Below are positions 6,817 to 30,944 of a DNA stretch of 35,520 nt, one piece after another. Origin of the DNA: an uncultured Eubacteriales bacterium (GTDB lineage: Bacteria; Bacillota; Clostridia; Peptostreptococcales; Anaerovoracaceae); assembly GCA_902774265.1 (NCBI GenBank), contig CACYHR010000021.1, positions 1-35,520 on the forward strand, read 5' to 3'. The notes beneath the pieces were generated by a model, which was not told the origin of the DNA, did not search any database, and saw only the letters and a list, made by a program, of their open reading frames with translations. The stretch's first letter is position 1; each line of letters opens with the position of its first letter. The position numbers and the translations under genes are program-made.

Positions 6817-6994
6817 GGGACAAAAATCCAATTAAAGTGGACAGAAATCCAATTAAAGTGGATGAAAATCCAATCTTGGGAGGACAAAAATCCAATTTCA
6901 GGGGGACAAAAATCCAAAGACTGAATAAACAGATTCGCAGCTGAGAAAATAATTTTTCGGCTGCGTATCTAAATAAAGTGGACAAAAATCCAAT
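6817..6994 (+). repeat. Iteron array, plasmid replication origin
   Basis: Six direct repeats of consensus GTGGACAAAAATCCAAT, all in one orientation, at about 6817, 6837, 6858, 6880, 6902 and 6978. The first five are spaced by roughly two helical turns (20-22 bp). The sixth follows a 30-bp dyad (CGCAGC at 6936-6941, GCTGCG at 6960-6965, with GAAAA/TTTTC inside). An AT-rich stretch (6650-6790) lies on the far side. This is the layout of Rep_3/RepB-type theta origins. No confident DnaA box was seen. Confidence 0.88.
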
Positions 6995-6997
6995 AAG

Positions 6998-7038
6998 GTG
7001 GATTGCTATATTGATTAAAATCCACTTTTTGGTAGAAT
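6998..7038 (+). promoter_or_regulatory. rep promoter with overlapping operator dyad
   Basis: TTGATT (7011-7016) and TAGAAT (7033-7038) are spaced 16 bp. GTGGAT (6998-7003) and ATCCAC (7020-7025), the iteron core in inverted orientation, overlap the promoter, as in Rep_3 plasmids where Rep dimers repress their own gene. If this promoter is used, transcription would start at or next to the ATG at 7045, implying a nearly leaderless message. Confidence 0.5.
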
Positions 7039-7044: not shown

Positions 7045-7809
7045 ATGGATGCGATAACAAAGAATCAAATAGAAAAAGAAAGATTGAGTAAGGATCGTAA
7101 TGCATTGGTCGTAAAATCCAATGTACTGCTTAAAGATGCCAGATATAAACTCAGTGCGACAGATCAGAAGGTCATCATTTTTCTGATATCCAAAATCATC
7201 GCAGATGATAAAGATTTCAAGCACATGAGGATGTCTGTGCAGGAATATTGTGATCTTACGAACATTACGAGAGGCGGCAATAGCGATAAAAAAATAAAAG
7301 ACAGCATCAAAACCTTATCTGACAAATCCTGGTGGTTTAAGGAAAATGGCGATGAAACACTGTTCAGGTGGATAGACACGGCAAAGATCACAAAGGACGG
7401 CTATATAGATATAGTTCTGAGCGACAGTCTTAAGCCATATCTGCTTGAGCTTGAGAAAAATTTTACAAAATATGAATTGATCAATGTCCTGACGCTTAAG
7501 AGCAAGCACTCAATTCGCCTTTATGAGCTCTTTAAATCAAATCTATGGCTTCATAAGTGGAAAGTATCCATTGCAGACATCAAAGAGATTCTTAACATAC
7601 AGGACAAGTACAAGGAATATAAAGATCTAAATAAACGTGTGATTGCGCCTTCTGTGAAAGAGATAAGCAAATACACAGACATAAAGGTTGAGTATGAACC
7701 GATAAGGACCGGACGATATAACACTGACTTGATTTTCTATATCGAGGAAAAACGGGGGTATCAGATGACCTGGGAAACCATTCTCAATCAGGAGAAAAGA
7801 CTTGGATAA
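7045..7809 (+). CDS. rep: Replication initiator, Rep_3 (RepB-type) family
   Basis: A 254-residue initiator of the Rep_3 superfamily (two winged-helix domains). The N-terminal part (NVLLKDARYKLSATDQKVIIFLISKI) is typical of the first domain. The segment INVLTLKSKHSIRLYELFKS marks the domain junction and KYTDIKVEYEPIRTGRYNTDLIFYI the second winged helix. It should bind the iterons at 6817-6994 to open the origin and, as dimers, repress its own promoter. Spacing from the iterons, length and frame are normal. The ribosome binding site is weak (ATAGGA 3-4 nt before ATG 7045), fitting low expression or leaderless start. A terminator at 7806-7840 separates it from the convergent coupling-protein gene. 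Confidence 0.93.
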   Translation: MDAITKNQIEKERLSKDRNALVVKSNVLLKDARYKLSATDQKVIIFLISKIIADDKDFKHMRMSVQEYCDLTNITRGGNSDKKIKDSIKTLSDKSWWFKENGDETLFRWIDTAKITKDGYIDIVLSDSLKPYLLELEKNFTKYELINVLTLKSKHSIRLYELFKSNLWLHKWKVSIADIKEILNIQDKYKEYKDLNKRVIAPSVKEISKYTDIKVEYEPIRTGRYNTDLIFYIEEKRGYQMTWETILNQEKRLG

Positions 7810-11943: not shown

Positions 11944-12019
11944 TTAACAAACTTTGAAAATATGATATAATATATGTAATAAAACATATAATAATTTATG
12001 TTATACTTTATTATATCAT
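11944..12019. promoter_or_regulatory. Divergent promoters with inverted repeat
   Basis: On the plus strand TTAACA (11944-11949), 16 bp and TATAAT (11966-11971) form a near-consensus sigma-70 promoter, with the same -35, spacing and -10 as the promoters at 13629 and 16198. ATGATATAAT (11962-11971) is repeated inverted as ATTATATCAT (12010-12019), giving a minus-strand -10 for the RHH gene and a 10-bp dyad 38 bp apart that could be an operator. Confidence 0.65.
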
Positions 12020-12044
12020 GTATGTGAAGGAAAGCAAATAAAAA

Positions 12045-12070
12045 TCGCAGCCGGAAAAACAAAGCTGCGA
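12045..12070 (+). repeat. CTGCGA hairpin motif
   Basis: TCGCAGC (12045-12051) and GCTGCGA (12064-12070) form a 7-bp stem around a 12-nt A-rich loop, near the start of the primase leader. It uses the same GGCTGCGAAA-type sequence found at the origin and upstream of several other genes. Confidence 0.5.
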
Positions 12071-12098
12071 AAAATAATGGATCTATAAAAAAAGAACA

Positions 12099-12229
12099 CC
12101 CGCTGCACGGATGTCCCCCTGAGAATAACCGAGTTATCCTCCTTAGTTGGCACTTAGATTATAGCTCATTTGACGCCAAAAGTCAAATTCCGGAGGGACC
12201 TTGCAGCGGGGGACTGCGAGGTTTTTTTG
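12099..12229 (+). promoter_or_regulatory. Attenuator leader, copy A (primase)
   Basis: It carries the conserved core GAGTTATCCTCCTTAGTTGG and following CACTTAGA (12131-12158). The core is flanked by the pairing TGAG..TAA/TTA..CTCA (12120-12128/12159-12168). A terminator, CCTTGCAG-loop-CTGCGAGG (12199-12221), is followed by seven T. An upstream strand CCCGCTGCA (12099-12107) is perfectly complementary to TGCAGCGGG (12202-12210), which covers most of the terminator's 5' arm and loop, so the two folds exclude each other. The terminator overlaps the 5' end of the longest primase reading frame. Confidence 0.68.
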
Positions 12230-13480
12230 GAAGCGATACAAATACAACTCAATCACAACACGCCGCGTGATTTCGCGGAGCTTCATTACGAATACGATCC
12301 GGATCACATCGGAGCAGTCCATATATGGAAGAGAGCCCCCGGAGACGCGGGACCGAGGTATATGGAAAAGGTCAGGGTGGACGATCTTGAGGACCGTCTT
12401 GAGAGCCTGGAGTACGATGAAAGCAGAGATCTTTACATTACCGCCAACAGCTTCGTAAGGTACAGAAGGGATATGGACGATCTTTATACCTTATATAACA
12501 TCGTGATCGATGTTGATGTTCATGACGGCTTCGGCTCTCTTCCGGACTGCTGGGCGGGGCAGCTCGAACGCGCGGTGAGAGACCGCGTGACGCTGCCTGA
12601 TCCGAACACCGTCGTGCATACCGGCCGCGGGCTGCAGCTCTGGTGGGCGATAGAGCCGGCGTCATACAAGGTCGTGCCGATGTACAGGAAAGCCGTCAGA
12701 TGGCTGACAGGCGAGGTCAGGGCCGCGATAGGGACGGTGGCATCACCCGGGCTGAGAGAAAAGGCTGATGTCGACAGCGCCGCGTCAATCAACGCCGCGG
12801 GCCTGTTCAGGCTGCCGGGAAGCTTCAACACGAAGTCCGGGACATGGGGATACTTCGAGATACTCCATTACAGAAGACTCAAGCTCGGCGATATATGCGG
12901 CGAACTCAGCGTGAGGAATACAGCGGGCAGCAGAAATCCCAAGATCCCGAAAGGCGGCCTGCCTGTGATCGCGGCGGCGGCCTCGCGTGAGGAATCTCTG
13001 ATGACTCTCATATCCGTAAGGGACGCGGAGCTGAACAGCGAGACCAGGGACCTGATATTGTTCTGCGACTACTGCGTCTGGTCTGAGATCATCCATGATC
13101 ACGAGGACATTATGGAGCATCTCAGGAGCCTGAACAGACTCTTCAGAGAGCCTCTTAGCGAGGCGGAAATGGCGGCGTACATGAGCACCGCCAGGAGGAA
13201 GAGATACAGGATCACGAATGCGACGATCATAGACAAGCTCGCTATCACAGCTGAGGAGCAGAGGATCATCGGTCTGTATCCCAATCGCCGGGAGATGGAA
13301 AGAGAGGCTCGACGCGATGCTAAACGCCTCAGGAACGAGCTGATCACCGGGCTCGGTGAAAAGGGCCTCACACATGCGGAGATAGCGATGCAGGCGGGAT
13401 GCAGCGTCAGGACGGTCGAGAGGATCCTCGCGTCCGGAGCTGTGAGGACGCGTGACATACGCGGAGCCGCGTGCGGATAG
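12227..13480 (+). CDS. Archaeo-eukaryotic-type plasmid primase with C-terminal HTH
   Basis: A protein of about 418 residues (436 if read from TTG 12170). Motifs fit the AEP primase superfamily: LYNIVIDVDVHDG (catalytic acidic pair), VVHTGRGLQLWW (nucleotide-binding loop) and FRLPGSFNTKSGTW (third motif with the R-x-PG-x-x-N-x-K pattern). The C-terminus has a helix-turn-helix, GLTHAEIAMQAGCSVRTVERIL. It probably primes plasmid DNA synthesis together with the helicase at 13824. There is no ATG near the N-terminus. TTG 12227, just after the terminator with GCGAGG 5 nt upstream, is my preferred start; TTG 12170 would place the terminator inside the gene and lacks a binding site. Confidence 0.75.
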   Translation: MEAIQIQLNHNTPRDFAELHYEYDPDHIGAVHIWKRAPGDAGPRYMEKVRVDDLEDRLESLEYDESRDLYITANSFVRYRRDMDDLYTLYNIVIDVDVHDGFGSLPDCWAGQLERAVRDRVTLPDPNTVVHTGRGLQLWWAIEPASYKVVPMYRKAVRWLTGEVRAAIGTVASPGLREKADVDSAASINAAGLFRLPGSFNTKSGTWGYFEILHYRRLKLGDICGELSVRNTAGSRNPKIPKGGLPVIAAAASREESLMTLISVRDAELNSETRDLILFCDYCVWSEIIHDHEDIMEHLRSLNRLFREPLSEAEMAAYMSTARRKRYRITNATIIDKLAITAEEQRIIGLYPNRREMEREARRDAKRLRNELITGLGEKGLTHAEIAMQAGCSVRTVERILASGAVRTRDIRGAACG

Positions 13481-13496
13481 AGGATCTCCCGGGACA

Positions 13497-13662
13497 GGGC
13501 ATTATATAGTGCGGTTTTGGCGGGTTTTCCGGGCTGCGGATCATCAGCTGGAAAAAAATAGAATCAGCATAAAAATTTATAATATAATATAAGTAGAGGT
13601 TAGGTCAATAATTTTTTTCAAAAAAGACTTAACAGTTTTTCGAAACATGGTATAATCAGAAT
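13497..13662 (+). repeat. Duplicated intergenic cassette, copy 1
   Basis: About 165 bp from GGGCATTATATAGTGCGG through TTCCGGGCTGCGGATC, an AT-rich block (TATAATATAATATAAG) and the TTAACA-N16-TATAAT promoter is nearly identical to 16076-16235. The first 16 bases also occur at 33058-33073. Each cassette begins shortly after a stop codon and ends at a promoter, so it looks like a mobile or recombining promoter unit. Confidence 0.8.
13629..13656 (+). promoter_or_regulatory. Promoter of the helicase leader
   Basis: TTAACA (13629-13634), 16 bp, TATAAT (13651-13656). The transcript would start near 13663, just before the first hairpin of the attenuator leader. Confidence 0.8.
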
Positions 13663-13674
13663 AGGTACAGCAAG

Positions 13675-13803
13675 ACGCCCGATTCGGGCGTTCGAGAGAC
13701 AGCCGGGTTATCCGTCCTTAGTTGGCGCTTTGGAACAGGCTCTCTGCCGTAACGGCATGACGACCCGGCTTCCCAGATCTGTCTGGAGCCGGGTCTTGTT
13801 GTG
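13675..13803 (+). promoter_or_regulatory. Attenuator leader, copy B (helicase)
   Basis: Hairpin ACGCCCG-ATT-CGGGCGT (13675-13691) is followed by the conserved core (13705-13734, containing TCCTTAGTTGG). The core is flanked by GAGAG/CTCTC (13694-13698/13740-13744). A strong terminator pairs GACCCGGCT (13762-13770) with AGCCGGGTC (13787-13795) over an inner CCAGA/TCTGG stem, followed by TTGTTGT. The same octamer AGCCGGGT occurs at 13701-13708 and can instead pair with ACCCGGCT (13763-13770), destroying the terminator. That is a textbook terminator/antiterminator switch. Confidence 0.78.
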
Positions 13804-13823
13804 CAATTACGAAAGGAGACCAA

Positions 13824-15194
13824 TTGAATAACAAAAACAACAACAAAGAAGCAAAGATCGAAACCACTGAGAGGATATTCTTTGATGAGCTGACGGAGGG
13901 ACAGCGTGAGGCCATGACAGCGGCGCTTGCAGGAGAGAGCCTGTTCATTACAGGAGGAGCGGGTGTAGGGAAGAGCTATCTGACGTCCCGGATCGTATCC
14001 GTGCTGCAGGCGAGCGGACGGAAGGTTCTGGTCACAGCTCCGACGGGCGTCGCGGCGAGCCTGATCGGCGGCGCGACAGTGCACAGAACCTTCGATGTGC
14101 CGCTGTATATGTCATGGTGCGCGAAGCCGCATGTAAGCAGGAATTCGGCGGCCTATATCGCGGACACGGTGGTCATCGACGAGATATCGATGTGCAGGAT
14201 CGATGACTTTTCCTATGTCATAAAAGCCATAAGACAGGCCGAGAAGAAGAGACGGAGACCTATGCAGATCATCGTCATCGGAGACTTTCTGCAGCTGCCG
14301 CCGGTTATGAAGAACCCGAAAGACAACAGCGTTTCTCTGAGAAAGATCCTGTCCACATACTATGGGATCGAGCTGGATGAGGGCTACTCGTATCTCGCCG
14401 ACGCGTGGAGTGCATGCAACTTCAGAGTGATAAACCTGACGGAGGTGGTCAGGCAGAAGGATGAGGCAGAGATAGAGATCCTGAACGGCATAAGGATGGG
14501 AGACAGATCGATGCTCTCGAGACTGAGGCCGGCAAGCAGGCCGATGCCGTTCCCTGATGACAAACCGGCGATAAAGCTGTGCGGAACCAACAGGACCGCG
14601 GAAAAGTTCAACAGAGAGGCGCTGAACAGGCTCTCGGGCAGGGAGTTCGTGTATCACTCATTAGTCGAAGGGATAGTCGAGGAGCAGGACAAGCCTGCTC
14701 CTGATGAGCTGAGACTCAAGGAGGGAGCCAGAGTCATGATACTGATCAACGATAGCGGCGGACGGTTCTGCAACGGTGATATGGGGACCGTCCTTAATCT
14801 GGACAAGATAAGCATCGATGTGATTCTCGATTCGACCGGCGAGGTGATCAGATTCTTTGGTAACTGCTGGGAGATCAGGGAGTATTTCGTCGAGATGGGC
14901 AGAGACAGGAAGCCGGACCTCATCCAGAAGGTCACCGGCCGTTTCACACAGATGCCGTTCAAACTCGCGTACGCGATCACGATACACAAGGCGCAGGGCC
15001 AGACTCTCGAGAGAGCCGAGCTCATACTCGGAGACGATCCCGAGATATTCGCGCCGGGCCAGCTCTATGTGGGACTGTCGCGTGTGAAGAGCCTGAAGGA
15101 TCTTTACATAAGCGGCGATCCGAGGAAGGTCGATACGCTCGCCGATGGACGGACTCTGGCGATCTATAAGGAGATAGAGGACTTGCAGCAGTGA
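13824..15194 (+). CDS. Pif1/RecD-like superfamily 1 helicase
   Basis: A 456-residue DNA helicase with the SF1B motifs in order: Walker A FITGGAGVGKSYLTS (about residue 44), motif Ia VTAPTGVAASLIGGATVHRTF, Walker B VVIDEISM, motif III VIGDFLQLPPV, the 2B-linked IHKAQGQTLERAE, and motif VI QLYVGLSRVKSLKDLYI. This is the Pif1 layout, a 5'-to-3' helicase. Start codon TTG 13824 follows AAAGGAG at 7 nt; no ATG is available. It follows the primase and its own attenuator leader, so it is probably an accessory replication helicase whose expression is set by that leader. Confidence 0.9.
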   Translation: MNNKNNNKEAKIETTERIFFDELTEGQREAMTAALAGESLFITGGAGVGKSYLTSRIVSVLQASGRKVLVTAPTGVAASLIGGATVHRTFDVPLYMSWCAKPHVSRNSAAYIADTVVIDEISMCRIDDFSYVIKAIRQAEKKRRRPMQIIVIGDFLQLPPVMKNPKDNSVSLRKILSTYYGIELDEGYSYLADAWSACNFRVINLTEVVRQKDEAEIEILNGIRMGDRSMLSRLRPASRPMPFPDDKPAIKLCGTNRTAEKFNREALNRLSGREFVYHSLVEGIVEEQDKPAPDELRLKEGARVMILINDSGGRFCNGDMGTVLNLDKISIDVILDSTGEVIRFFGNCWEIREYFVEMGRDRKPDLIQKVTGRFTQMPFKLAYAITIHKAQGQTLERAELILGDDPEIFAPGQLYVGLSRVKSLKDLYISGDPRKVDTLADGRTLAIYKEIEDLQQ

Positions 15195-15276
15195 ATGGTC
15201 CTCTCCGCCGCCCCGGAACGAGGCGGCGGAGAGACTGCGGACGCATACACAAAGATAAGGTAACAGGAGGAATGAG

Positions 15277-16059
15277 ATGATAGACAAAGAAGGTATTTAC
15301 CTTGATGAAATATTCTCCAACGGGCCTACCGATGAGGATATAGACTACGCGGTCCGTCACATGGACATGAACAGGCCCGAGAGGAAGAGGACGCGCAAAG
15401 AACGTGCGGTCGAACGGAGAGAGCGCATGATCCTCAAGGGATACACCAGGGCTCTCGAGATAGACAGGTTCACCGGATGCGGCCAGGTGCCTATAGGAAG
15501 CGAGATACCAGAGAGCCCGGTCGAGTTTCCGGCAGCCGAGCTTCCGAGAAGAGCGAATAATATAAGAAAATTGCAGGCGTTGACGGAGGCGTTCGGGCTC
15601 AGAGGCGAGATAATCGAGAATTACATGAACGGGATCGTGAGCATCATGTATCTTGACAGTAATGAGAAAGGGCACGTGCTGACGCTGGATGACGATGATG
15701 AATTCAAAAAGGCCGCGACAAAGATGGTCAGAAAGTACGACATACTTCCGATAGCAGGACTGAAATTCGACGGCCAGGACGCCCCGGTGTTTCTGGCTGA
15801 CGATGTACACGTCGTGGGAGGAGTCGATCCGTTCGGATGGGGATACTCTTTAATGTGCAGGGATTTCCGTTTCTGCGGATATATCTGGTACAGGAATCCT
15901 GAGACGAAGAAGATGGAGCTCTACTTCAGTTCCGGGATCATGGCGGATGTGCATGACGGTATCATGTATCCGGTCGCGGCTTTTCCGAGACTGGCCGCGA
16001 AAGACGGGCATATGCCGTGGGACATCACGGAGCAGCTTAGACTGACTCAGATATATTAG
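15277..16059 (+). CDS. Unknown protein downstream of the helicase
   Basis: A 260-residue protein with no domain I recognise. The first 60 residues are charged and helical with a basic patch (RPERKRTRKERAVERRERM). The rest alternates helices and strands and ends in an aromatic-rich region (VDPFGWGYSLM, FCGYIWYRN, MPWDITEQL). AGGAGG 6 nt before ATG 15277 fixes the start. It lies 82 bases after the helicase stop in the same direction, so it is probably cotranscribed; a GC-rich inverted repeat (GCCGCC/GGCGGC) in the gap may be an intercistronic hairpin. Confidence 0.62.
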   Translation: MIDKEGIYLDEIFSNGPTDEDIDYAVRHMDMNRPERKRTRKERAVERRERMILKGYTRALEIDRFTGCGQVPIGSEIPESPVEFPAAELPRRANNIRKLQALTEAFGLRGEIIENYMNGIVSIMYLDSNEKGHVLTLDDDDEFKKAATKMVRKYDILPIAGLKFDGQDAPVFLADDVHVVGGVDPFGWGYSLMCRDFRFCGYIWYRNPETKKMELYFSSGIMADVHDGIMYPVAAFPRLAAKDGHMPWDITEQLRLTQIY

Positions 16060-16075
16060 GGAGCGGGGCATTATA

Positions 16076-16235
16076 TAGTGCGGTTTTGTCGGGTTTTCCG
16101 GGCTGCGGATCATCAGCTGGGAAAAAATGAAATCATCGTAAAACTTTATGATATAATATAAGTAGAGGTTAGGTCAATAATTTTTCTCAAAAAAGGCTTA
16201 ACAGTTTTTCGAAACATGGTATAATCAGGATAGGT
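16076..16235 (+). repeat. Duplicated intergenic cassette, copy 2
   Basis: Second copy of the 13497-13662 cassette, again starting just after a stop codon with GGGCATTATATAGTGCGG and ending with the TTAACA-N16-TATAAT promoter (16198-16225). Differences from copy 1 are scattered single bases and short indels, so this is an older duplication rather than an assembly artefact. Confidence 0.8.
16198..16225 (+). promoter_or_regulatory. Promoter of leader copy C
   Basis: TTAACA (16198-16203), 16 bp, TATAAT (16220-16225); same as the promoters at 11944 and 13629. The transcript would start near 16232. Confidence 0.8.
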
Positions 16236-16246
16236 GAATATATGAG

Positions 16247-16375
16247 GCACCCTTCACCGGGGTGCGCGCGGGAATAGCGGAGTGATCCTCCTTAGTTGGC
16301 ACTTTGGACATGATCTCCCGGCCGTATCGGCGTATCGACACGGCTTCCCGCGCAGGCTGGAAGCCGTGTTTTATT
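16247..16375 (+). promoter_or_regulatory. Attenuator leader, copy C
   Basis: Hairpin GCACCC/GGGTGC (16247-16265) is followed by the conserved core (16279-16308, with TCCTCCTTAGTTGGCACTTT). The core is flanked by CGGGA/TCCCG (16269-16273/16316-16320). The terminator is an 11-bp stem ACACGGCTTCC/GGAAGCCGTGT (16338-16348/16359-16369) followed by TTTATT. GCGCGGGA (16266-16273) can instead pair with TCCCGCGC (16346-16353) in the terminator arm and loop. The 140 nt between this terminator and the next start hold no gene that I can support. Confidence 0.75.
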
Positions 16376-16516: not shown

Positions 16517-17230
16517 ATGAACAACCAAAAAATCAAATCAATAACAGTACCCGAAGAAGTGATCGGAACAAGAACAAAGCACGGTTTCTATGAAGAATAT
16601 GAGATGACGGAAGACCTGATCAGAAAATCTGACGGCCAATATATCCTCAAAAGAGAATTCTGCGGTTATCCCGGTGAAGTAAACGCTGTGCGCAGCGAGT
16701 TCATCAAAAATCATGCAGAAGTTGAGATCAGCCCCGAGGAAGCAGAAAGATGGCTGGACAGAAAGAACGCACCTAAAGCAACGGTATCAGCGGAGGACCT
16801 GTATCCTTCAGGCATAACCGGAATGTACTTCACCTATTCCGGAGAGGCCCCTGCCACCTACGACGGCAGCTGGTTCAGATCACTGCTGGAGGAGACCGAT
16901 CACAATGCTTTCCGCATAGACATAGCCGTTGGCTGCAGCGTCTACAACGAGCGCGGCAGATACTGGGAAGATATGTCTGATGTCATAACGGTGGAGTCGA
17001 TACTCGTTCAGTGCGGAACATCTACAGATGAGATTTACGAAGAAATCGTCACCGTTCTTAAAAATTATCGCAAGAACCATATTTTCAAAGAACATACAGC
17101 GTTCACAGAGAGAATCACAGTTATAGGCGATGATTGCACGGAGATTGGATTCGCCGAAAGCAGCGAACTTCCTGCGATTTATAACAAAATGGCCGAAACC
17201 ATCGAGGATTTCGATGTCCTCGGATGGTAG
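16517..17230 (+). CDS. Unknown acidic protein behind attenuator copy C
   Basis: A 237-residue acidic protein, MNNQKIKSITVPEEVIGTRT..., with no domain I recognise. Residues 1-70 look like strands and short helices; the stretch HNAFRIDIAVGCSVYNERGRYWEDMSDVITVESI suggests a mixed alpha/beta fold. GAAAGGA lies 8 nt before ATG 16517. It carries its own promoter and attenuator leader of the same type as the primase and helicase, so it is probably regulated with the replication genes. Confidence 0.62.
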   Translation: MNNQKIKSITVPEEVIGTRTKHGFYEEYEMTEDLIRKSDGQYILKREFCGYPGEVNAVRSEFIKNHAEVEISPEEAERWLDRKNAPKATVSAEDLYPSGITGMYFTYSGEAPATYDGSWFRSLLEETDHNAFRIDIAVGCSVYNERGRYWEDMSDVITVESILVQCGTSTDEIYEEIVTVLKNYRKNHIFKEHTAFTERITVIGDDCTEIGFAESSELPAIYNKMAETIEDFDVLGW

Positions 17231-17239: not shown

Positions 17240-17390
17240 CCCGCATAGCGACGGAGGCGAAAAGCCTCCGGTAATGCGGGCGGCCGGGCGCAAACCCGGA
17301 CATACCTAACGCACTCAGGGAACAATGTAGAAAGGCGAATGGCTATCACGGCACGAATCGGCGGAAATCGGGCACCGCCTGCCGTTTCTT
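17240..17390 (+). other. Structured 3' region ending in a terminator
   Basis: CCCGCAT/ATGCGGG (17240/17274) encloses CGGAGGC/GCCTCCG (17252/17264). CCGGG/CCCGG follows (17284/17295). ACGGC..GGCGG/CCGCC.GCCGT (17348-17364/17375-17385) runs into TTCTTATT as an intrinsic terminator. The unpaired middle (about 17300-17345) is purine-rich. It could be the 3' UTR of the gene at 16517 or a separate small RNA; no gene is seen in it. Confidence 0.5.
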
Positions 17391-17554: not shown

Positions 17555-18127
17555 ATGAAATACGGGTATGCAAGGGTCAGCACACAGGGGCAGGCCCGCG
17601 AGGGCAACAGCCTCGAAAAACAGGAGCAGGATCTGCGTGCGGCAGGCGCTGAGAAGATATATGCGGATGCATTCACCGGCAAGCGGATGGATCGTCCGGA
17701 GCTGCAGAAGCTGCTCAAAGAGATACAGACCGGCGATACGCTCATAGTCACGAAGCTGGATCGTTTTGCACGCAGCATCGGATCCGCGAGCGAGCTGATA
17801 ACGGATCTCATAGACAAGGGCGTCACCGTTCAAGTCCTGAATGTAGGTATTCTGGATAACAGTTCAGTCAGCACACTTTTTAGGAATATGCTGCTGTCAT
17901 TCGCACAGTTTGAGAGAGACATGATCATCGAGCGCACACAAGAGGGCAGGGCCATTGCCAGGCAGAAGGAAGGATACAGGGAAGGCCGCAAGAAGAAATT
18001 CACGACTAAGCAGCTTGATCATGCTATGGAACTGCTGGAAGAGAATTCCTATAGAGAGGTAGAGCAGATCACCGGTATAAGCAAAAGCACTCTGATAAGA
18101 GAGCATAAGACAAGGATGAAAAAGTAG
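17555..18127 (+). CDS. Small serine recombinase (resolvase)
   Basis: A 190-residue resolvase/invertase. The N-terminal domain starts MKYGYARVSTQGQ with catalytic Ser9, then KLDRFARSIGSASELI and the long E-helix region ERDMIIERTQEGRAIARQKEG. A C-terminal HTH, EVEQITGISKSTLIREHK, completes it. It would resolve plasmid multimers or cointegrates at the dyads just upstream, and may repress itself there. The stop codon lies exactly at the edge of a group II intron remnant on the other strand, so the last residues may have been altered by that insertion. Confidence 0.9.
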   Translation: MKYGYARVSTQGQAREGNSLEKQEQDLRAAGAEKIYADAFTGKRMDRPELQKLLKEIQTGDTLIVTKLDRFARSIGSASELITDLIDKGVTVQVLNVGILDNSSVSTLFRNMLLSFAQFERDMIIERTQEGRAIARQKEGYREGRKKKFTTKQLDHAMELLEENSYREVEQITGISKSTLIREHKTRMKK

Positions 18128-18570
18128 GCGAATGAATTGGTTTTCATCCGCCCCTTGTCAAACCGTACGTGCGCTACTAACGCATACGGCTTTCCTTCTC
18201 TTTGCTAATGAACTGCTCCACTATCGTTACCTTGCGTATGCGTAGCTGAAGAATCGTCTTCTATCTCTGCGATCACGCTTCCTGCTTCTTATTCTTGCAA
18301 GAAACTCATCTACTGTAAGGTTGGGCTCTCTCATTTGCATTGCCATGTAATCTCCTGTAACAAGTCCCATGGTCTTTACAAAAAAGTCGTTACCATACTT
18401 GACCGTCAGCAGTTTGCCGTCTCTTTGCACCGCAGTTTTCTTCTCTCTGTTAGCGAAGTTAACGCGCAGTCGTTGCCTCACATATCCGTCGAGGTCACCA
18501 TATCTGCGCTTTGCTTTGCCGTGGAATTTCATGCCTCTCTTCCTGCACTCGAGCAACTCATTTCTACATT
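18124..18570 (-). mobile_element. Group II intron remnant (3' end only)
   Basis: On the minus strand, 18192-18159 reads as a domain V hairpin: AAGCCGTATGCG, a short loop, then CGCACGTACGGTTTG, with the AGC triad and two-base AC bulge typical of domain V. It is followed by a domain VI-like stem (GGCG..ATGAA/TTCAT..CGCC, 18152-18127) and preceded by the end of a maturase gene. Domains I-III and most of the reverse transcriptase are missing, so the copy is 5'-truncated and inactive. Its 3' end abuts the resolvase stop codon. Confidence 0.72.
18227..18556 (-). pseudogene. Group II intron maturase, C-terminal fragment
   Basis: A 109-residue fragment, KRRYGDLDGYVRQRLRVNF then KYGNDFFVKTMGLVTGDYM and a basic tail (ARIRSRKRDRRDRRR). 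The first stretch resembles the C-terminal (domain X and beyond) end of group II intron-encoded proteins. The reverse transcriptase domain is absent and the fragment ends a few tens of bases from the next gene. Domain V follows 35 bases after the stop, as expected in an intron, which supports the assignment more than the protein does. Confidence 0.6.
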
Positions 18571-22408: not shown

Positions 22409-23008
22409 CTATTTAAAAATTGCTTTCATCAGATCCGGCAGACATGCCTCCAGAATTTGTGCAGAGCTGTCTACCAGTCTCCAGTTTCTTTCCGGAGATG
22501 GAGTCTTGTGTCCGTGGAAAAGATTGTTTCGGACCTGATATATGTAACTGAATAAAATTCTTATGCGCTTCAGAGGTGCTATATCATCGTCTATCAGATC
22601 GATGTGTCCAGCAACAATGTCTGCACATTTTCTTCTGTTATAGACTCTTGATCCTACAGCAGCATACAGTCTGTCAGTCAAGGCATGTTCTGATTCATAG
22701 CTCCAGTCGAGTTCCGGAGCGCGTACATCTTCAGCCATGACTGGTGATTCCATAAACACATCAAGATAGTCTGCATTGAAGTCCACACATGATATGAATA
22801 TATCGGAATGACGCCTGATAAAATCCATGATTTTATCCCGGTCAGACCCTATATCTTCTGCATCATAGTTATACAGCTGGTTGAATGTGATCCAGTAGGA
22901 TATAAAAGCATATACCGAATCACTTTCCCTGCTGCCTCGATCGAACCATTCTCTGGCGATTATGAACGGGGCCTCGTCCGTGTGTACTGGCGCGAACTTT
23001 CGATTCAT
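22409..23008 (-). CDS. HEPN-like protein of the restriction operon
   Basis: A 199-residue mostly helical protein. Near residue 160 it has YQVRNNLFHGHK, the R-x4-H motif of HEPN domains (R, N, N, L, F, H), followed by a final helix. HEPN proteins include ribonucleases used in toxin-antitoxin and abortive defence, but many are catalytically silent. The start codon overlaps the vsr stop (TAATG) and GGAG is inside the end of vsr, so it is translated with vsr as the last gene of the operon. A second-line toxin or an accessory of the restriction system is possible; no antitoxin candidate adjoins it. Confidence 0.6.
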   Translation of the reverse strand: MNRKFAPVHTDEAPFIIAREWFDRGSRESDSVYAFISYWITFNQLYNYDAEDIGSDRDKIMDFIRRHSDIFISCVDFNADYLDVFMESPVMAEDVRAPELDWSYESEHALTDRLYAAVGSRVYNRRKCADIVAGHIDLIDDDIAPLKRIRILFSYIYQVRNNLFHGHKTPSPERNWRLVDSSAQILEACLPDLMKAIFK

Positions 23009-23448
23009 TAGAGCAGCTCTCCTTTATTGACAAGAGTCTTCTCAAGTTCATTCTGAACTCTATGCATGGTAATCTCAAACAATTTAGCATTGATCTCACA
23101 TTCCCAGACGATTATCACATGCCAGCCGGCTGCTTCAAGTGCACGGACATGTTCCTGATCGCGCTCAACATTCCGGGAGAACTTCGTCTCCCAGAACTCT
23201 GTCCGCGTCTTCGGCATGGTCGTATATTTACATCCATGCCTGTGCCAGAAACATCCGTGCACAAAAATAACCGTCTTATATTTCGGAAGGACTATGTCCG
23301 GCTTACCGGGAAGCCTTTTATCATTTTTACGATATCTGTAGCCATGCGAAAACAACCATGAACGAACTCGTAGTTCGGGCGCAGTATCCTTTCCCTTAAT
23401 CTGAGACATATTATAGCTTCTGACTATCGGGTTGTGTACATCTGCCAT
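23008..23448 (-). CDS. vsr: Very short patch repair endonuclease
   Basis: A 146-residue Vsr-family mismatch endonuclease. MSQIKGKDTAPELRVRSWLFSHGYRYR is the N-terminal family signature. PGKPDIVLPKYKTVIFVHGCFWHRHGC contains the catalytic Asp and the His/Cys metal and DNA contacts. Vsr nicks 5' of T in T:G mismatches that arise when 5-methylcytosine deaminates, so it protects the target sites of a C5 methyltransferase. Two such enzymes lie upstream in the same operon. The start is 15 bases from the IS4 element, whose insertion separated vsr from mcrC. Confidence 0.92.
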   Translation of the reverse strand: MADVHNPIVRSYNMSQIKGKDTAPELRVRSWLFSHGYRYRKNDKRLPGKPDIVLPKYKTVIFVHGCFWHRHGCKYTTMPKTRTEFWETKFSRNVERDQEHVRALEAAGWHVIIVWECEINAKLFEITMHRVQNELEKTLVNKGELL

Positions 23449-23623
23449 CTGAGTTTCTTCTCTTATAACTCAAACTTCCCACAAGGGAATTGACCTGAAC
23501 ATATTGAAATTTCAACGTTTATTCGAGATAGATTCATGTTTTTGACATAAATAAGGCACTGATTTCTGGTAAAATAAGTGTAGGAAAAAACAACCCATAA
23601 TACCGAAAGGAGTGCCTACACTT

Positions 23624-25039
23624 ATGTTACATCAAAACACGGATAACATAAACACCTCAAATGAAATTTTCATAAGTTTTATCAGCGCAATTAAGGAACT
23701 TAAGGTCAGTAAGATCCTTAATACATGCGGAATCCGCAAATTAGCCAGAAGAATTGATGGTGAGGCATCTGCTGAGAAGAGAACAGCATGTGAAATATTT
23801 CAGTTTCTTCTCATAATGGTATTTCAAGGCTGCAATCTGCACCGTTTTCTTGGCTCCAAGAAGCAGGATATAGCATGCTCAAAGAGTACGTACCATCGTT
23901 TTCTGAATGACTGTCACTACAATTGGCGCAGATTTGTAACGATGCTTGCAGCCAATGTAGTGGCCAGCATAGATCGGTTGACTGACAATAACAGATTCAA
24001 AGCGTTTGTTCTCGATGATTCCGTCATTGGACGTAAGCGAAGCAAACGTGTGGAGTTGCTGTCATATGTATTTGATCATGTGGCAGGTAAATCAGTCAAA
24101 GGCTTTAACCTTCTCACGCTTGGATGGACTGACGGATTCAGCTTTATACCGGTAGCGTTCAATATGCTGTCATCTGCCAAAGCGAGCAAACGCCTGAACA
24201 ACATTAACGAATCAATAGACAAGCGTACAGTTGGCTACAGAAACCGCAAAACAGCTATCATGCGGAAGCCGGATGCTGCAATAGCGATGATCCGAGAGGC
24301 GTTGGATGCCGGCATCTTCGCTGACTATGTCCTTATGGATACATGGTTTACCAATGAGCCTTTCATTAAACGCCTGCGCGATGAAGGTCTTGATGTGATC
24401 GGCATGCTTAAAGACAACCGCCAGTTGTACCACTACCGTAATAAGCTTATGAATCTCCGTACACTTGCCGCACATCATGTGCGCATGGTCGGTGACAATA
24501 ACCTTCTCGGATCAGTGGTCGTTCGTACGCATAAATGCAGCATACCAGTTAAGCTCGTATTTGTAAGGAACCGCAATAAACGCAACGAATATATCATTAT
24601 TTTGTCCACGGACTGCGCTCTTTCTGATGAAGAGATAGTACGCAGATACTCAGCACGCTGGTCGATAGAGTGCTGTTTCAAAGTATGCAAGAGCATGTTG
24701 AAGCTCGGTAAGGAATTCCAGCCAGTAAACTATGATACAACAGTCTCCAGTACAGCTTTAGTGTTTACCAGGTTCATCATCCTTGAATGGATCCGTCGGA
24801 AAAACTCTGATTATAGAACTATGGGCGATCTATTCTTCCTTATTTATGAAGAAGTACGTGACTTAGAACTAAGTGATGCTCTCGAAAAACTGGTATCAAT
24901 ACTGGCAGTTGGCATAGCTCAGGGCAGAATACAGGTCGATGAAGTTATTCGAGCGGAACTCCTGGACTGGTATATTTCTCAGCCGATATTTATTCAGAGT
25001 TTATGTCAGTCACAATTGTTTAAGGGATCCTTGTGGTAA
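23624..25039 (+). CDS. IS4-family transposase
   Basis: A 471-residue DDE transposase. LDDSVIGRKRSKRVELL has the first Asp, DYVLMDTWFTNEPFI the second, and RRYSARWSIECCFKVCKSMLKLG matches the Y-2-R-3-E-6-K signature of the IS4 family exactly. The frame is intact. AAAGGAG is 11 nt before ATG 23624; a GTG at 23612 overlaps that site and is unlikely. Full-length gene and paired ends suggest a functional element. Confidence 0.92.
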   Translation: MLHQNTDNINTSNEIFISFISAIKELKVSKILNTCGIRKLARRIDGEASAEKRTACEIFQFLLIMVFQGCNLHRFLGSKKQDIACSKSTYHRFLNDCHYNWRRFVTMLAANVVASIDRLTDNNRFKAFVLDDSVIGRKRSKRVELLSYVFDHVAGKSVKGFNLLTLGWTDGFSFIPVAFNMLSSAKASKRLNNINESIDKRTVGYRNRKTAIMRKPDAAIAMIREALDAGIFADYVLMDTWFTNEPFIKRLRDEGLDVIGMLKDNRQLYHYRNKLMNLRTLAAHHVRMVGDNNLLGSVVVRTHKCSIPVKLVFVRNRNKRNEYIIILSTDCALSDEEIVRRYSARWSIECCFKVCKSMLKLGKEFQPVNYDTTVSSTALVFTRFIILEWIRRKNSDYRTMGDLFFLIYEEVRDLELSDALEKLVSILAVGIAQGRIQVDEVIRAELLDWYISQPIFIQSLCQSQLFKGSLW

Positions 25040-25147
25040 CATAAGTTCAGCAATCGAATGCCCAATGATGAAACACAGCATTACCAGGTTCTAATACAAT
25101 GTCATGTTTAATACTCGAAATACTATAACTTAAGAAAGGAAAACGAG

Positions 25148-25303
25148 ATGAAAATTATAATCACTGTCTGTATCATTGCCTTCTCGTTACTATTTTTGGT
25201 TATTCGCTACTCAGAAAAAAGCAAAGGAAGATCATACAGTTTCAAGGATTTTCTTCTGGAACTGTTTAATCACGGCGGAGATGGCAGTAATTACAAAAGA
25301 TAG
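25148..25303 (+). CDS. Small membrane protein inside the IS4 element
   Basis: A 51-residue frame: an N-terminal membrane segment (MKIIITVCIIAFSLLFLVI), a basic stretch (RYSEKSKGRS) and a polar tail. AAAGGA lies 8 nt before ATG 25148. It is between the transposase stop and the right end, so it would be a passenger. IS4 elements normally carry only the transposase, which makes a second small gene unusual; it could be a chance frame. Confidence 0.45.
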   Translation: MKIIITVCIIAFSLLFLVIRYSEKSKGRSYSFKDFLLELFNHGGDGSNYKR

Positions 25304-25448
25304 ATGTTCGTTACTTTACAACTGGCTGAAGCAGGCTTGACTCAGTACTGATTGATTCAAATGTCAAGTCTTATAAAAAGCAGGCATCAACATTAGCTAT
25401 TTAAATGCAATGGCACGTTATTTCTTATGGGAAGTTTGAGTTATAATA

Positions 25449-26558
25449 CTAATTCTCCCGAATACCAGCTTCCTGCAGCCTGCTAAGGAAATCCAGGAGA
25501 TCTTTTTCTATTGATTGCCATTCAGAATTAAGATCAATTGTCTTTACAATAATACGGGTTGATTCAATTGCAAATATGCTGCCTAAAGACAAATTATGTT
25601 CAACCATAGGATACAACAGTGCCCCGATTTTCTTCCCATTATATTCACTATCTTGAATATAACCTCTTATCTGATCAAGATGTATCCTTCTGATTCGTTC
25701 ATCTCCATTGCCCCTGTAAGCATTTACCAATGTTTTACTGTAATACTTTGCATCCATTATCATCTGTAAATGGGATTGCTTATTTTCAATTACTATATCT
25801 GTTCTCCTGTCTCCGGGGTTCATATCGATATTAAACAGATCTCCGTATAATTCTTCTGCTGATTCTTCCATATGCCAGTTGATCTTAGGTGCGTGTACTT
25901 TGTATATATTCTTATCAAGGTGTATTCTGTAAAAATTCAAGATAAACTTTTCAAAGACTTTTTCCATCTGTTTATCTCTTGAGAAATCGCTGAAGGTTGT
26001 CAATCCGCTCTCTTCATTTATACTGGTATTTTCATAGAGCATAATCGCAATGTTGATTAGAAGCTTATAGGTGACATTATTTTTGTTGAAAATCAGCTTG
26101 CGTCTTGTCTCTTTTGTTGGAGCTGTAGCAGCTATTCCATCAAAATACACAGCCTGTTTCTTTAAAAGCTTTTTTGTCTCCGCATCTACAGACATGTTAC
26201 GCAACAGAGAATCAATTGTATATTTGAGGATCTGATTAAACAGGTCGTCTTTTGAGTACTCGTCAAATGTGCATATAAGTCGTTTTCGCTGATTTGATAG
26301 TTTTCTGATACTGTCCTGTACAAGAATTTTACCGCGAAGAGTTATTATTTCTTCCGATCTATCTATATACGAACGATGGAAGCCCGATCTTATGAGTTTT
26401 CCTATCCCAAAAGAAAACACTCTGGCAAGCAAATTATTTGCGTCATCATAATCGTCTGATGAAAAATCAAAATCATCAGCAATTGACAGAATGTTCCATG
26501 CATAACAGAGCATGTAAAAAATATTTCTTATCGGAATAGGTCCTCTGCTTTTACTCAT
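25449..26558 (-). CDS. McrC-like restriction subunit
   Basis: A 369-residue protein starting PIPIRNIFYMLCYAWNIL, the McrC family signature. A PD-(D/E)xK nuclease core lies in the C-terminal half (RRTDIVIE then QMIMDAKYY). McrC subunits supply the DNA cleavage of McrBC-type complexes when joined to the NTPase. It starts 3 bases after the McrB stop; start ATG 26558. An IS4 element lies 2 bases beyond its stop codon and leaves the protein complete. Confidence 0.88.
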   Translation of the reverse strand: MSKSRGPIPIRNIFYMLCYAWNILSIADDFDFSSDDYDDANNLLARVFSFGIGKLIRSGFHRSYIDRSEEIITLRGKILVQDSIRKLSNQRKRLICTFDEYSKDDLFNQILKYTIDSLLRNMSVDAETKKLLKKQAVYFDGIAATAPTKETRRKLIFNKNNVTYKLLINIAIMLYENTSINEESGLTTFSDFSRDKQMEKVFEKFILNFYRIHLDKNIYKVHAPKINWHMEESAEELYGDLFNIDMNPGDRRTDIVIENKQSHLQMIMDAKYYSKTLVNAYRGNGDERIRRIHLDQIRGYIQDSEYNGKKIGALLYPMVEHNLSLGSIFAIESTRIIVKTIDLNSEWQSIEKDLLDFLSRLQEAGIREN

Positions 26559-26561
26559 AGT

Positions 26562-28427
26562 CTATCTAAGCAACTCCCTAATACAGTCTTCTGCTTTTGA
26601 TTTATCATCCCACCAGTATTCTTCGAGTAACGGGGCTATTTCATAATCAATAATAGTCTTATACCATTCAGAGTCCGACTGATCTTTGAGCGGTTTTTTA
26701 CAGAAGTAACTATGACCTATACAGAATCCTTCACCTAATCCGGAGTTGTCCTCATCTGCTATCTTTTTATTCAGATCAATTAATCTTTCTATAACTTTGT
26801 CAGCTATATTCCTGTCTTTGAGAATGCTCTTGAGATAAATTTGAAACTTCTCATTTCCGAAAGCAGGCTTGATATTGTAAAAACTGAATCGACGTCTAAG
26901 AGCATAATCTATCATTGCAAGGCTTCTATCCGCAGTATTCATCAATCCTATAAGATAGAGATTTTCCGGTACAGAAAATTTCTCGTCTCTCTTATAAGCG
27001 AGTGTCACAGCATTATCCGGCCCTCTTTTATCTCCTTCTATAAGCATCATAAGCTCTCCGAAAATTTTACTCAGATTTCCTCTGTTGATTTCATCTATGA
27101 TAAAGAAATACTTCCTTTCTGAATCCTTTTCAGCTTTCTTACAGAACTCATAAAAGACTCCCGGTATAAGATCAAAAGAATCATCGGACGGTTTATAGCC
27201 CATAATAAAATCTTCATAACTGTAGTTCTGGTGGAATTGTATTTCCTCTACCATATTACGATTCTTTTTTCCGATTAGGGAATATGCAAAACGCTTCGCA
27301 AGGTATGTTTTGCCGACTCCGGGCGCACCTTGAAGAATAATATTTTGCTTATAGAAAAGAAGTCTTTTTAGTTTCTCATATTCGGCAGGGTCAATAAAAA
27401 CATCATTCAGGAAATCCTGCATTGTGTAATCTTTAGCATTTTGTTCAGCAACCAGTGTTTCTGCTATCTCATTCTGTTCACGGAGGTACTTTTCGTACCA
27501 TTTTAATGCAGTACTCAGCGATCTGTTGCTGCAGGCAATATTAACTTCTTCAAAATCCGGATGATTTCTGATCATCTCCTTGATGTCTGAAAATACAGCT
27601 GGATCCGTAATATCAAACAAATTCTCTAAATCCGGGAAATCCGATATATCAATCAGACCGCAAACTCTTTTCAGTGCATCGCAATTATTATTGATGGTTT
27701 TCTGAGCAGGAGTCCTTCCTTGACTGTTTTGCTGATTTCCCATCCATTTTCTGAACTGTTTTTCATTATCGTTGTTTCCAGATTCTAAGTATTCGGTTTC
27801 CGACTCGTGTACGCAGCTATCAGCATTCACAACTGTTACAGCATTTGAGGCTCTGAAAAACTTATTATTCAGCAAGCTGAGATTATAACTTCCTTCAGAT
27901 TCTTTTTTTATACCACACGCTAAATACCGCATAGATCTGAAATACTTCAGCAGAATAAAATAGTCTCCCTCATGAAGATTCTCACGGAACAATTTAAACG
28001 CCGCACCATCATAATTCAGTAGGGATAACTGGATTTGGTCGCTTTGATTTGCACGCTTACTGCGGAAAATACACATATCAGACTGCAGATAATCATCCCC
28101 TGTCATAAAGCTGCTTATTCCGAGGTACTCACAATTACTTCGACTTAACTCCACACATACTTTTAGTACAAAGTATTTTTTCAAATCTTCGTTTACTATT
28201 TTGCCGTCATCATTATAGAAATACCCGTCAGCACTCAAACGAGGAAAAATATCCATTTGTTCGCCCGTAATGGCGATATGAGTCTGATTGGTGCGACGAC
28301 CCTCATCTAATGTATTAGATGCAGCCAGCTTTTTTACTATCAGACCGTCAAAATCATCTGAATTGATGACCGTGCCGTTCTGCCATAATACATGCGCTAC
28401 AGTACTAACAGCTTCTTGAAAATTCAT
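26562..28427 (-). CDS. McrB-like AAA+ NTPase restriction subunit
   Basis: A 621-residue protein. The N-terminal half (about residues 1-230) is unlike E. coli McrB and probably holds the DNA-recognition domain. The C-terminal AAA+ module has Walker A QGAPGVGKTYLAKRF (about 363), Walker B FFIIDEINRGNLSKIFGEL (about 440) and the McrB-type GLMNTADRSLAMIDYALRRRF motif. It should assemble as a ring, translocate DNA on NTP hydrolysis and drive cleavage by McrC. Its start overlaps the methyltransferase stop by 4 nt. In LlaJI-like systems this pair restricts unmodified rather than methylated sites. Confidence 0.9.
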   Translation of the reverse strand: MNFQEAVSTVAHVLWQNGTVINSDDFDGLIVKKLAASNTLDEGRRTNQTHIAITGEQMDIFPRLSADGYFYNDDGKIVNEDLKKYFVLKVCVELSRSNCEYLGISSFMTGDDYLQSDMCIFRSKRANQSDQIQLSLLNYDGAAFKLFRENLHEGDYFILLKYFRSMRYLACGIKKESEGSYNLSLLNNKFFRASNAVTVVNADSCVHESETEYLESGNNDNEKQFRKWMGNQQNSQGRTPAQKTINNNCDALKRVCGLIDISDFPDLENLFDITDPAVFSDIKEMIRNHPDFEEVNIACSNRSLSTALKWYEKYLREQNEIAETLVAEQNAKDYTMQDFLNDVFIDPAEYEKLKRLLFYKQNIILQGAPGVGKTYLAKRFAYSLIGKKNRNMVEEIQFHQNYSYEDFIMGYKPSDDSFDLIPGVFYEFCKKAEKDSERKYFFIIDEINRGNLSKIFGELMMLIEGDKRGPDNAVTLAYKRDEKFSVPENLYLIGLMNTADRSLAMIDYALRRRFSFYNIKPAFGNEKFQIYLKSILKDRNIADKVIERLIDLNKKIADEDNSGLGEGFCIGHSYFCKKPLKDQSDSEWYKTIIDYEIAPLLEEYWWDDKSKAEDCIRELLR

Positions 28428-29866: not shown

Positions 29867-30789
29867 TCTCCTAAATCTTCGAGAGTTTTTCTTACTGCTT
29901 CGGCAACAGCTCTGGATACATTCACGGTTACCGCATTCCCGAACTGTTTATATGCCTGTGAATCTGAGACGGGTATTATGAATGAATCTTCAAACCCTTG
30001 AAGTCGAGCGCATTCACGAGGCGTTAATCTCCGGACTTTTCCGTTCTGTGTCACATAGTTATCCTGACAAGCCCTGTGCATTTTTGCCATTGTTGCACAA
30101 AGTGGTCTTGCGACTGGAAGATCTATTTCCGATTTTGCTTTATATCCGCCTGTTCCATTAGATAAAATGGTTGGAAGAATCTTATCAGAAAGAAAATATT
30201 TAGCAGGAACATTTTGCTCGAGTCTGTCCTGCAAGGTAACTTCCAGCGGCTTCTTTTCCGGATATTCAAATTCTGCTTCAGAATTTGAGAAGCAGACAAT
30301 GTAAGTACGATTTCTCGTCTGTGGGACTCCGTAATCTGCAGAATTCAGAACATCTACAAACACTTTATACCCAAGATCATCCCTAAGTATTCTCTCGATT
30401 GTTTTAAAAGTTCGACCTCTATCATGAGTTCGTAACGCTCTGACATTTTCTAGAATAATAGCTTTTGGCTTCTCATCTTTATTAATCTTGTCTTTGATTA
30501 TCTCGGCAATTCGGAAGAACAGAGTTCCCCTAGCATCTTCAAAACCAAGCTGATCTCCCATCATACTGAATGCTTGACATGGAAATCCTCCGATTATTAC
30601 ATCGGAATCGGGAATATCTGGCAAATGGATTTGATTAATATCTCCCAAAATAATGGGATTACTATAATTAGCGGAATAGGTTTGGACTGCGTATTTATCA
30701 AAATCATTGGCCCATATAACATTGAAACCGGCATCTTCAAAACCTTTATCCAAGCCACCAATTCCACTGAATAGCGATACTACTTTCAT
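29857..30789 (-). CDS. C5 cytosine DNA methyltransferase 1
   Basis: A 310-residue methyltransferase starting MKVVSLFSGIGGLDKGFEDAG (motif I). Motif IV is VIIGGFPCQAFSMMGDQ with the catalytic Cys, motif VI is IILENVRAL, motif VIII GVPQTRNRTYIV and the end QFGNAVTVNVSRAVA. AAGGAG 6 nt before ATG 30789 sets the start; the longer frame to 30951 lacks a binding site. It is first in the operon, so DNA is modified before the restriction subunits accumulate. Confidence 0.93.
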   Translation of the reverse strand: MKVVSLFSGIGGLDKGFEDAGFNVIWANDFDKYAVQTYSANYSNPIILGDINQIHLPDIPDSDVIIGGFPCQAFSMMGDQLGFEDARGTLFFRIAEIIKDKINKDEKPKAIILENVRALRTHDRGRTFKTIERILRDDLGYKVFVDVLNSADYGVPQTRNRTYIVCFSNSEAEFEYPEKKPLEVTLQDRLEQNVPAKYFLSDKILPTILSNGTGGYKAKSEIDLPVARPLCATMAKMHRACQDNYVTQNGKVRRLTPRECARLQGFEDSFIIPVSDSQAYKQFGNAVTVNVSRAVAEAVRKTLEDLGEWE

Positions 30790-30835
30790 TGCTATCTCCT
30801 TGTTGATTTTTATTCTATAACTCCCACTCGCCTTT

Positions 30836-30864
30836 ATTACATAAAAATACAATTTGTTGATCAA
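30836..30864 (-). promoter_or_regulatory. Promoter of the restriction-modification operon
   Basis: On the minus strand TTGATC (30864-30859), 17 bp and TGTAAT (30841-30836) lie about 45 bases before the methyltransferase start. Moderate match only. Confidence 0.4.
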
Positions 30865-30944
30865 ATCCCATTCGGTCAAGAGCATATTTAATGTTGTCAT
30901 TTCTAAAATGGTTTTGATAATATCAGCAATTCTCAATCTTTTAG

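Follow-up and report, generated by a model that had tools for sequence, protein, structure and literature searches.

What is the function of a short sequence that recurs in three leaders of a single plasmid? The stretch of DNA analyzed here (the window, 35,520 nt) is a single contig (CACYHR010000021.1) in a 3.26-Mb assembly of 110 contigs from an uncultured Eubacteriales bacterium, and, since 74 bases at one end are repeated at the other, it is apparently a complete circular plasmid of about 35.4 kb. Leaders upstream of a probable primase gene (leader A), a helicase gene (leader B), and a gene for a 237-aa protein (leader C) share a core of about 30 nt. An earlier note, made from the sequence alone, had described these leaders as three related transcription attenuators and had left the sensed signal open between a small molecule, a plasmid protein, an antisense RNA, and ribosomes. 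The three related attenuators were supported by sequence and by folding. As to the signal, the evidence points to an antisense RNA, because a putative antisense RNA gene is encoded opposite core A. The best reading, which we regard as moderately probable, is a countertranscript attenuator of the pT181/pIP501 type, in which a single RNA would act in cis on leader A and in trans on leaders B and C.

The common core was first of all confirmed as a property of this molecule. By an exact-pattern scan of the whole assembly, the 16-nt block TCCTTAGTTGGC-R-CTT was found exactly three times, at positions 12140, 13715, and 16289, always on the plus strand and always on this plasmid. A 26-nt version of the core (up to 3 mismatches) matched cores A and C and had no match in 100 shuffles; core B was missed by this pattern because of an inserted base. 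A 15-nt pattern with 3 mismatches was uninformative by itself (shuffle mean of 1.24), but all three sites are exact. Over 32-33 nt, core A (12124-12155, plus strand), core B (13698-13730, plus strand), and core C (16273-16304, plus strand) are 82% (A/B), 91% (A/C), and 79% (B/C) identical. Between the transcription start site and the core, identity falls to 47% (A/B), 42% (A/C), and 55% (B/C), against shuffled means of 44, 43, and 46% and maxima of 56-62%, and beyond the core it is 71% for B/C, 49% for A/B, and 51% for A/C. With the core 79-91% identical and the stretch upstream of it near the shuffled level, the core has been preserved, and the part of the leader 5′ of it has changed so much that no resemblance is left. 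The core was not found in the Rep3 initiator gene (7045-7809). Readings of the core as a small open reading frame, as an oriT, and as a 16S or tRNA mimic were each dropped on inspection by eye.

On the minus strand of leader A lies what looks like a complete small-RNA gene with predicted ends, which had been missed in the earlier note. Its promoter (TTGACT-N17-TATAAT, 11/12, positions 12158-12186, minus strand) was found in a promoter scan, and the antisense, or countertranscript, RNA of about 65-68 nt (12087-12154, minus strand) has a predicted start at 12151-12154 and a predicted end at 12087. The 5′ seed of the predicted RNA contains GCCAACUAAGGA, and the RNA folds into a 3-bp hairpin, a 9-bp hairpin (12141-12121), and a terminator hairpin (12120-12090), with a U7 tract at 12093-12087. 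Promoters scoring 11/12 number six on both strands of the window, three of them being the leader promoters, and a score of 11 was reached in 19 of 2000 random 100-nt neighbourhoods. An 11/12 promoter with a terminator within 160 nt was found at two places in the window, the antisense locus and leader C itself; 20 shuffled windows contained no such pair, and at 9/12 their average was 0.35. The generic scanner listed the antisense promoter and not the antisense terminator.

The antisense interval folded at −25.3 kcal/mol on the minus strand versus −8.6 kcal/mol on the plus strand, a gap of 16.7. Over 1773 segments (71 nt, step 20), the largest gap was 16.3, which is the same locus in another register, the largest outside 12000-12230 was 14.3, and the mean was 3.4; the antisense locus ranks first in strand folding gap, not by a wide margin. 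Helices of leader A with an A-C mismatch on the plus strand show a G-U pair on the minus strand (by eye). Near this locus, a GC-rich hairpin at 12047-12069, followed on the minus strand by a T-rich stretch, is possibly a second terminator behind the antisense RNA; as seen by eye, it faces the divergent gene for a 212-aa protein.

The block conserved among A, B, and C ends about 1-4 nt from the predicted antisense start, with one further shared base beyond, and the antisense −10 box sits where A departs from the TTTGGA common to B and C. Because the core ends within a few bases of the predicted 5′ end of the antisense RNA, the core is the likely target of that RNA: core A would be its cis target, and cores B and C are proposed as trans targets, with seed targets at 13715-13730 and 16289-16304, respectively.

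In every leader a terminator hairpin can form, and further upstream lies a strand that can pair with the 5′ arm or loop of that hairpin, as had been claimed and as folding bears out. In leader A, the pre-emptor (antiterminator) strand (12099-12107, plus strand) pairs with 12202-12210 and lies inside the antisense duplex; the terminator hairpin (12199-12221, plus strand) is followed by U7, and its 3′ arm holds the likely primase ribosome site GCGAGG. In leader B, the pre-emptor strand (13701-13708, plus strand) overlaps the core and pairs with 13763-13770, and the terminator hairpin (13763-13794, plus strand) is followed by CTTGTTGTGC, a weak U-tract. In leader C, the pre-emptor strand (16266-16273, plus strand) abuts the core and pairs with 16346-16353, taking up the top of the 5′ arm and the loop of a terminator hairpin (16338-16369, plus strand) that is followed by UUUAUU. 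U-tract quality is graded as good in A, fair in C, and weak in B. The pre-emptor does not occupy one fixed position with respect to the core in the three leaders; what the pre-emptors have in common is that each falls inside, or beside, the sequence that the antisense RNA can pair with.

Partition-function folding of the unfinished leaders, before the terminator 3′ arm is made, gave pair probabilities of 0.92-1.00 for the antiterminator helices. When the upstream part was shuffled 300 times, helices as long as those observed between the target region and the arm or loop (9, 8, and 9 bp in A, B, and C) arose 5, 6, and 5 times. The observed degree of 5′-arm sequestration was matched in 12, 49, and 6 of 300 shuffles when any upstream part was allowed, and in 5, 9, and 57 of 300 when the target region was used.

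The claim that all three leaders start from a common TTAACA-N16-TATAAT promoter was right as to its presence before each leader (11944-11971 in A, 13629-13656 in B, and 16198-16225 in C, all on the plus strand; promoter scan) and needs correction as to its place in A, where the promoter begins 155 nt before 12099, the beginning of the attenuator part, and does not adjoin the leader as in B and C. Over 160 nt and as far as the start site, the promoter blocks of B and C (13497-13666 and 16066-16235) show 94% identity. Identity has a sharp boundary at the B/C start site and is then near chance until the core, which duplication alone does not explain. A near-palindromic GGGCATTATATAGTGC element occurs in three plus-strand copies (13497-13512, 16066-16081, and 33059-33074), each a short distance 3′ of a gene (primase, 260-aa, and RadC-like, respectively); the first two copies open the promoter blocks of leaders B and C.

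Pairing of the predicted RNA with the leaders was calculated in silico. The 5′ half of the antisense RNA paired with C at −54.9 and with B at −52.7 kcal/mol, and the best of 1012 segments that do not overlap leaders A, B, and C reached −30.5 kcal/mol. The antisense RNA of A gave −50.5 on B and −53.3 on C, and hypothetical antisense RNAs of B or C gave −38.8 to −44.5 on the other leaders; the RNA of A is the best common partner of the three by 6 to 14.5 kcal/mol. Relative to A, the seed target differs at 0 of 16 positions in C and at 1 of 16 in B, where the change keeps a G-U pair. Among the substitutions from A to B or C, 5 of 8 keep pairing by G-U, and in the opposite direction 1 of 8 does, an asymmetry that would fit antisense targeting and is not significant alone.

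Co-folding of the unfinished leaders with the 68-nt RNA lowered the antiterminator probability from 0.99, 0.98, and 1.00 (A, B, and C) to 0.00 in all three. The conserved 5′ half of the RNA alone also gave 0.00 in all three, and the diverged 3′ half removed the antiterminator only in A (0.98 remained in B and 1.00 in C). The energy gained by co-folding was −75.7, −28.2, and −18.7 kcal/mol, versus −5.2, −16.3, and −9.5 for the best of 60 shuffled RNAs. When 190 other 68-mers from the plasmid were used, the probability fell below 0.5 with 2, 26, and 2 of them in A, B, and C; none lowered it in all three leaders and one did so in two. Among 100 shuffled RNAs, the corresponding numbers were 3, 17, and 3. 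In the finished leaders A and C, the terminator probability was 0.00 and 0.60, respectively, without the RNA and 1.00 in both with it. Sequence or computation shows the anatomy of the antisense gene, the three complementary targets, and the alternative foldings with their change on pairing.

From these parts a mechanism can be proposed in which the conserved core would be the landing site of a plasmid-encoded antisense RNA. This RNA would be made from the minus strand of the primase leader, starting at the 3′ edge of the core and ending about 68 nt on at its own terminator. When it is absent, the pre-emptor of the nascent leader would fold onto the 5′ arm of the terminator (or arm and loop) and transcription would enter the gene; with the RNA on the core, the pre-emptor would be covered or displaced, the terminator would form, and the gene would be off. 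In leader A, the terminator 3′ arm probably also holds the ribosome site of the primase. The RNA would act in cis on A; its conserved 5′ half would let it act in trans on B, affecting the helicase and perhaps also the 260-aa gene that follows, and on C (237-aa gene), so that rising copy number would lower all three outputs together. We infer that the cell makes the RNA, that the RNA pairs in time, that leaders B and C are responsive in vivo, and that the whole serves to control copy number. Antisense control of leader A in cis is, in our judgment, likely. A single-input module is one antisense RNA controlling several attenuated genes; that this plasmid carries a natural one, in which one antisense RNA sets three attenuators, feeds back on the replication machinery as a set, and has its core kept by selection for pairing, is favoured by us at barely better than an even chance.

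Several points weigh against this reading. The generic terminator scanner listed none of the three leader terminators, the loops of B and C exceeding its limit. Sequestration of the 5′ arm was ordinary in B when any upstream part was allowed (49/300) and in C when the target region was used (57/300), and the registers and leader ends for folding were chosen by the author after seeing the sequence. Three of the eight B/C substitutions break pairing, the A/B comparison has two gap positions besides, and the retention of pairing by 5 of 6 transitions corresponds to p of about 0.11 under a coin-toss model, with one transition perhaps shared by descent. In leader C, the pre-emptor is only about half bound by the RNA (probability 0.50). 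Leader B is the weakest of the three, because its U-tract is poor and its antiterminator is disturbed by many sequences (it was opened by 26 of the 190 unrelated RNAs and by 17 of the 100 shuffled ones); the terminator probability of the finished leader B was 0.78 with and without the RNA in equilibrium folding, so control of B would have to be kinetic. Finally, three copies in one molecule do not count as independent evidence of selection, and no homologue of the core was found in the collections searched, so that these provide no independent evolutionary test.

The alternative that survives best, and that we consider unlikely, is that only leader A is under antisense control, in cis, and that B and C are duplicates that lost the antisense promoter and whose cores are remnants or serve another use. 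The antisense promoter and U-tract occur in A only: the best antisense promoter scores in B and C were 7 and 8/12, where 8 is the commonest random best, and the near identity of the B and C promoter blocks (94%) is a sign of duplication or conversion. Against this alternative stand the core identities of 79-91% beside a start-site-to-core stretch near chance, a seed target that is unchanged in C and changed once in B with a G-U pair kept, and the removal in silico of the antiterminators of B and C by the RNA of A.

A second alternative, the view of the earlier note, takes the core as a cis-acting RNA element for a small molecule or protein, with the minus-strand RNA of A as incidental or a second layer; we consider it quite improbable. 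It can claim a small hairpin, AGU-UGGC-RCU, that is present in the minimum-energy folds of all three full leaders (and absent from the short fold of B alone) and whose one change pairs on the plus strand (U-G) and not on the minus strand, as well as the TTGGA that B and C have in common beyond the antisense start. The covarying stem claimed around the core did not withstand comparison with chance, however. In the only three sequences known, and with core and geometry fixed, the best flanking helices are 4, 5, and 5 bp long (A, B, and C); shuffled flanks formed helices of that length in 43, 17, and 21% of cases, and random places did so in 51, 16, and 16%. Nor is the change from AGT/ACT to GGT/GCT inside the core a paired one, since the hairpin strand of B still reads AGT and the A-to-G changes fall at separate places. 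A search of Rfam gave nothing at gathering score over the leaders, and together with the chance-level stems this tells against a riboswitch-aptamer-like core held by covariation. A relaxed Rfam scan (E up to 5) added two matches below threshold, both lying over parts of terminators: BjrC68 in C (21.6 bits, gathering 39, E 0.03) and, in B, NiCo-AnGGAG on the minus strand (22.6 bits, gathering 64.5, E 0.21). Both were taken as chance. Two helices of A, moreover, pair better on the minus strand (by eye), and the core stops at the predicted start of the antisense RNA.

The search for homologues by covariance model, which the earlier note had proposed as a check, returned only the plasmid's own three copies as credible. 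Among 393 genomes of the order (E up to 0.1 plus stricter filters), these were joined by 8 weak matches of 20.6-24.5 bits, judged on inspection to be chance, and among 391 genomes of the class (E up to 0.001) they stood by themselves; the samples overlap. The exact core pattern matched 10 stretches of viral contigs and a looser pattern 35 (one already among the 10), with one match each and, by eye, the leader anatomy in none; several of these matches resemble, by eye, a stop codon and ribosome site on the opposite strand. One scan of genome contigs gave 1 stretch, on a Bacteroidales contig, without leader anatomy by eye. Among 148 relatives, the core pattern with 1 mismatch matched 6 genomes including the plasmid's own, and the other 5, which hold 6 sites (one genome having two on different contigs), lacked the anatomy by eye. 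No similarity to plasmid DNA was found for a 4.5-kb stretch or for core C, and none to phage DNA for core C; the 4.5-kb stretch had one 82-base phage match at 77%, inside the helicase gene.

The last alternative, that the core is a DNA element (a plasmid-protein binding site, or a single-strand initiation site used by the primase) and not an RNA target, draws on the fact that a region containing primase-like and helicase genes has three copies, all on the same strand, and it is highly improbable given that each copy is similarly placed downstream of a promoter and before a terminator and that an antisense RNA gene lies opposite one of them.

The genes behind the leaders were annotated by family and plasmid searches and by structure prediction. 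Downstream of leader A lies the probable RepB-like primase gene (417 aa, 12227-13480, plus strand), whose TTG start codon at 12227 and ribosome site GCGAGG were assigned by eye. Its family matches are weak: Pfam gave no primase family, matches to primase/replication PHROGs were weak, and tblastn matched plasmid genes at about 22-31% identity, two among the matches listed being annotated with a DNA-primase RepB domain. In all, 56 plasmid records matched the primase, each below 60% identity (best 30.5% among the 20 matches listed); relatives were found in its own genome only among 296 genomes of the family, and none in the viral contig collection. Downstream of leader B lies a PIF1/Dda-like helicase gene (456 aa, 13824-15194, plus strand; family matches), for which 249 plasmid records matched, all below 60% identity, and for which relatives at 1e-40 were found in its own genome only, of 295. 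It is followed by a 260-aa gene of no assigned kind (15277-16059). The 237-aa gene (16517-17230, plus strand) lies downstream of leader C; family searches with its protein gave nothing above cut-off, and its predicted structure (mean pLDDT of 51.7) was too poor for use. Neither the 237-aa nor the 260-aa protein had a relative in the viral contigs, and the 237-aa protein had none in plasmids either. For the 212-aa protein encoded divergently from leader A, a family match was not found and the predicted structure (mean pLDDT of 40.0) was also too poor for use. Immediately 3′ of the 237-aa gene, at 17242-17299 (plus strand), Rfam RF02684 (type-P5 twister ribozyme) matches with 39.4 bits, above its gathering score.

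The plasmid backbone includes the Rep3 initiator gene (family match), a MobV-like relaxase gene, and a coupling-protein gene. Upstream of the initiator, at 6818-7002, are four copies of a GGACAAAAATCCAAT-type repeat, 74-100% alike, which are likely iterons. Elsewhere in the window, a group II intron match (RF00029, 40.8 bits, barely above gathering) lies at 18119-18194 (minus strand), at the end of a serine-recombinase gene, and a defence-like cluster (23008-30951) comprises a Vsr endonuclease, an AAA_5 ATPase and, adjoining it, an McrBC component (both within 25449-28427), as well as two C-5 cytosine methylases (at 28424-30951); a DDE transposase lies in between.

To our knowledge, each plasmid antisense RNA that controls replication serves a single leader. 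If the proposed reading is true, this plasmid turned such a device into a small regulon by copying its target: a single RNA opposite the primase leader would act as a copy-number brake wired to three outputs, giving feedback on primase and helicase beside a Rep3 initiator that has no target. Titles and abstracts in the open literature yielded no natural plasmid example of one antisense RNA driving several attenuators, and so, as far as that literature was searched, the mechanism is known and its use by one antisense RNA on three attenuators would be a new arrangement.

In pT181, an 87-nt antisense RNA (RNAI) complementary to the repC leader lets stem-loop IV form, a terminator-like structure predicted to hold the ribosome site, and when the antisense RNA is missing, the 5′ arm of that stem is taken up by a pre-emptor (PMC5703833, PMC4878617). 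The plasmid described here resembles pT181 in the small antisense RNA encoded opposite the leader, with a predicted length of about 68 nt against 87 nt in pT181, in a terminator that lies directly before the gene and, in leader A, includes the likely ribosome site, and in a pre-emptor predicted to pair with the terminator 5′ arm; release of the terminator by antisense pairing, as in pT181, was seen in silico for A and C. It differs in that the target is a primase-like gene and not an initiator and that the RNA is predicted to reach two more leaders in trans, and no sequence relation of pT181 to these leaders was found. In pIP501 and the Inc18 group, a 136-nt RNAIII ends transcription in the repR leader together with the repressor CopR (PMC4981023). 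An antisense RNA is likewise predicted here to end transcription of a replication gene in its leader, whereas a Cop-type repressor was not identified, the divergent 212-aa protein being without a family match. Leader A has the parts of pT181 and pIP501 in the same order and is therefore predicted to work like them.

Other systems are more distant. In pMV158 the short antisense RNA is RNAII, and its single-stranded 5′ tail is important for binding (PMC4485353), but RNAII blocks translation of repB and not transcription, unlike the transcriptional control predicted here. RteR of CTnDOT is a small RNA of a mobile element that represses its tra operon (PMC9299015) and, unlike the RNA proposed here, controls transfer genes. 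The arrangement on this plasmid would, if true, parallel the RNA-only networks engineered from pT181 attenuators, which are mentioned once as single-input modules (PMC4878617). Unlike those engineered modules, the arrangement on this plasmid would be a natural one.

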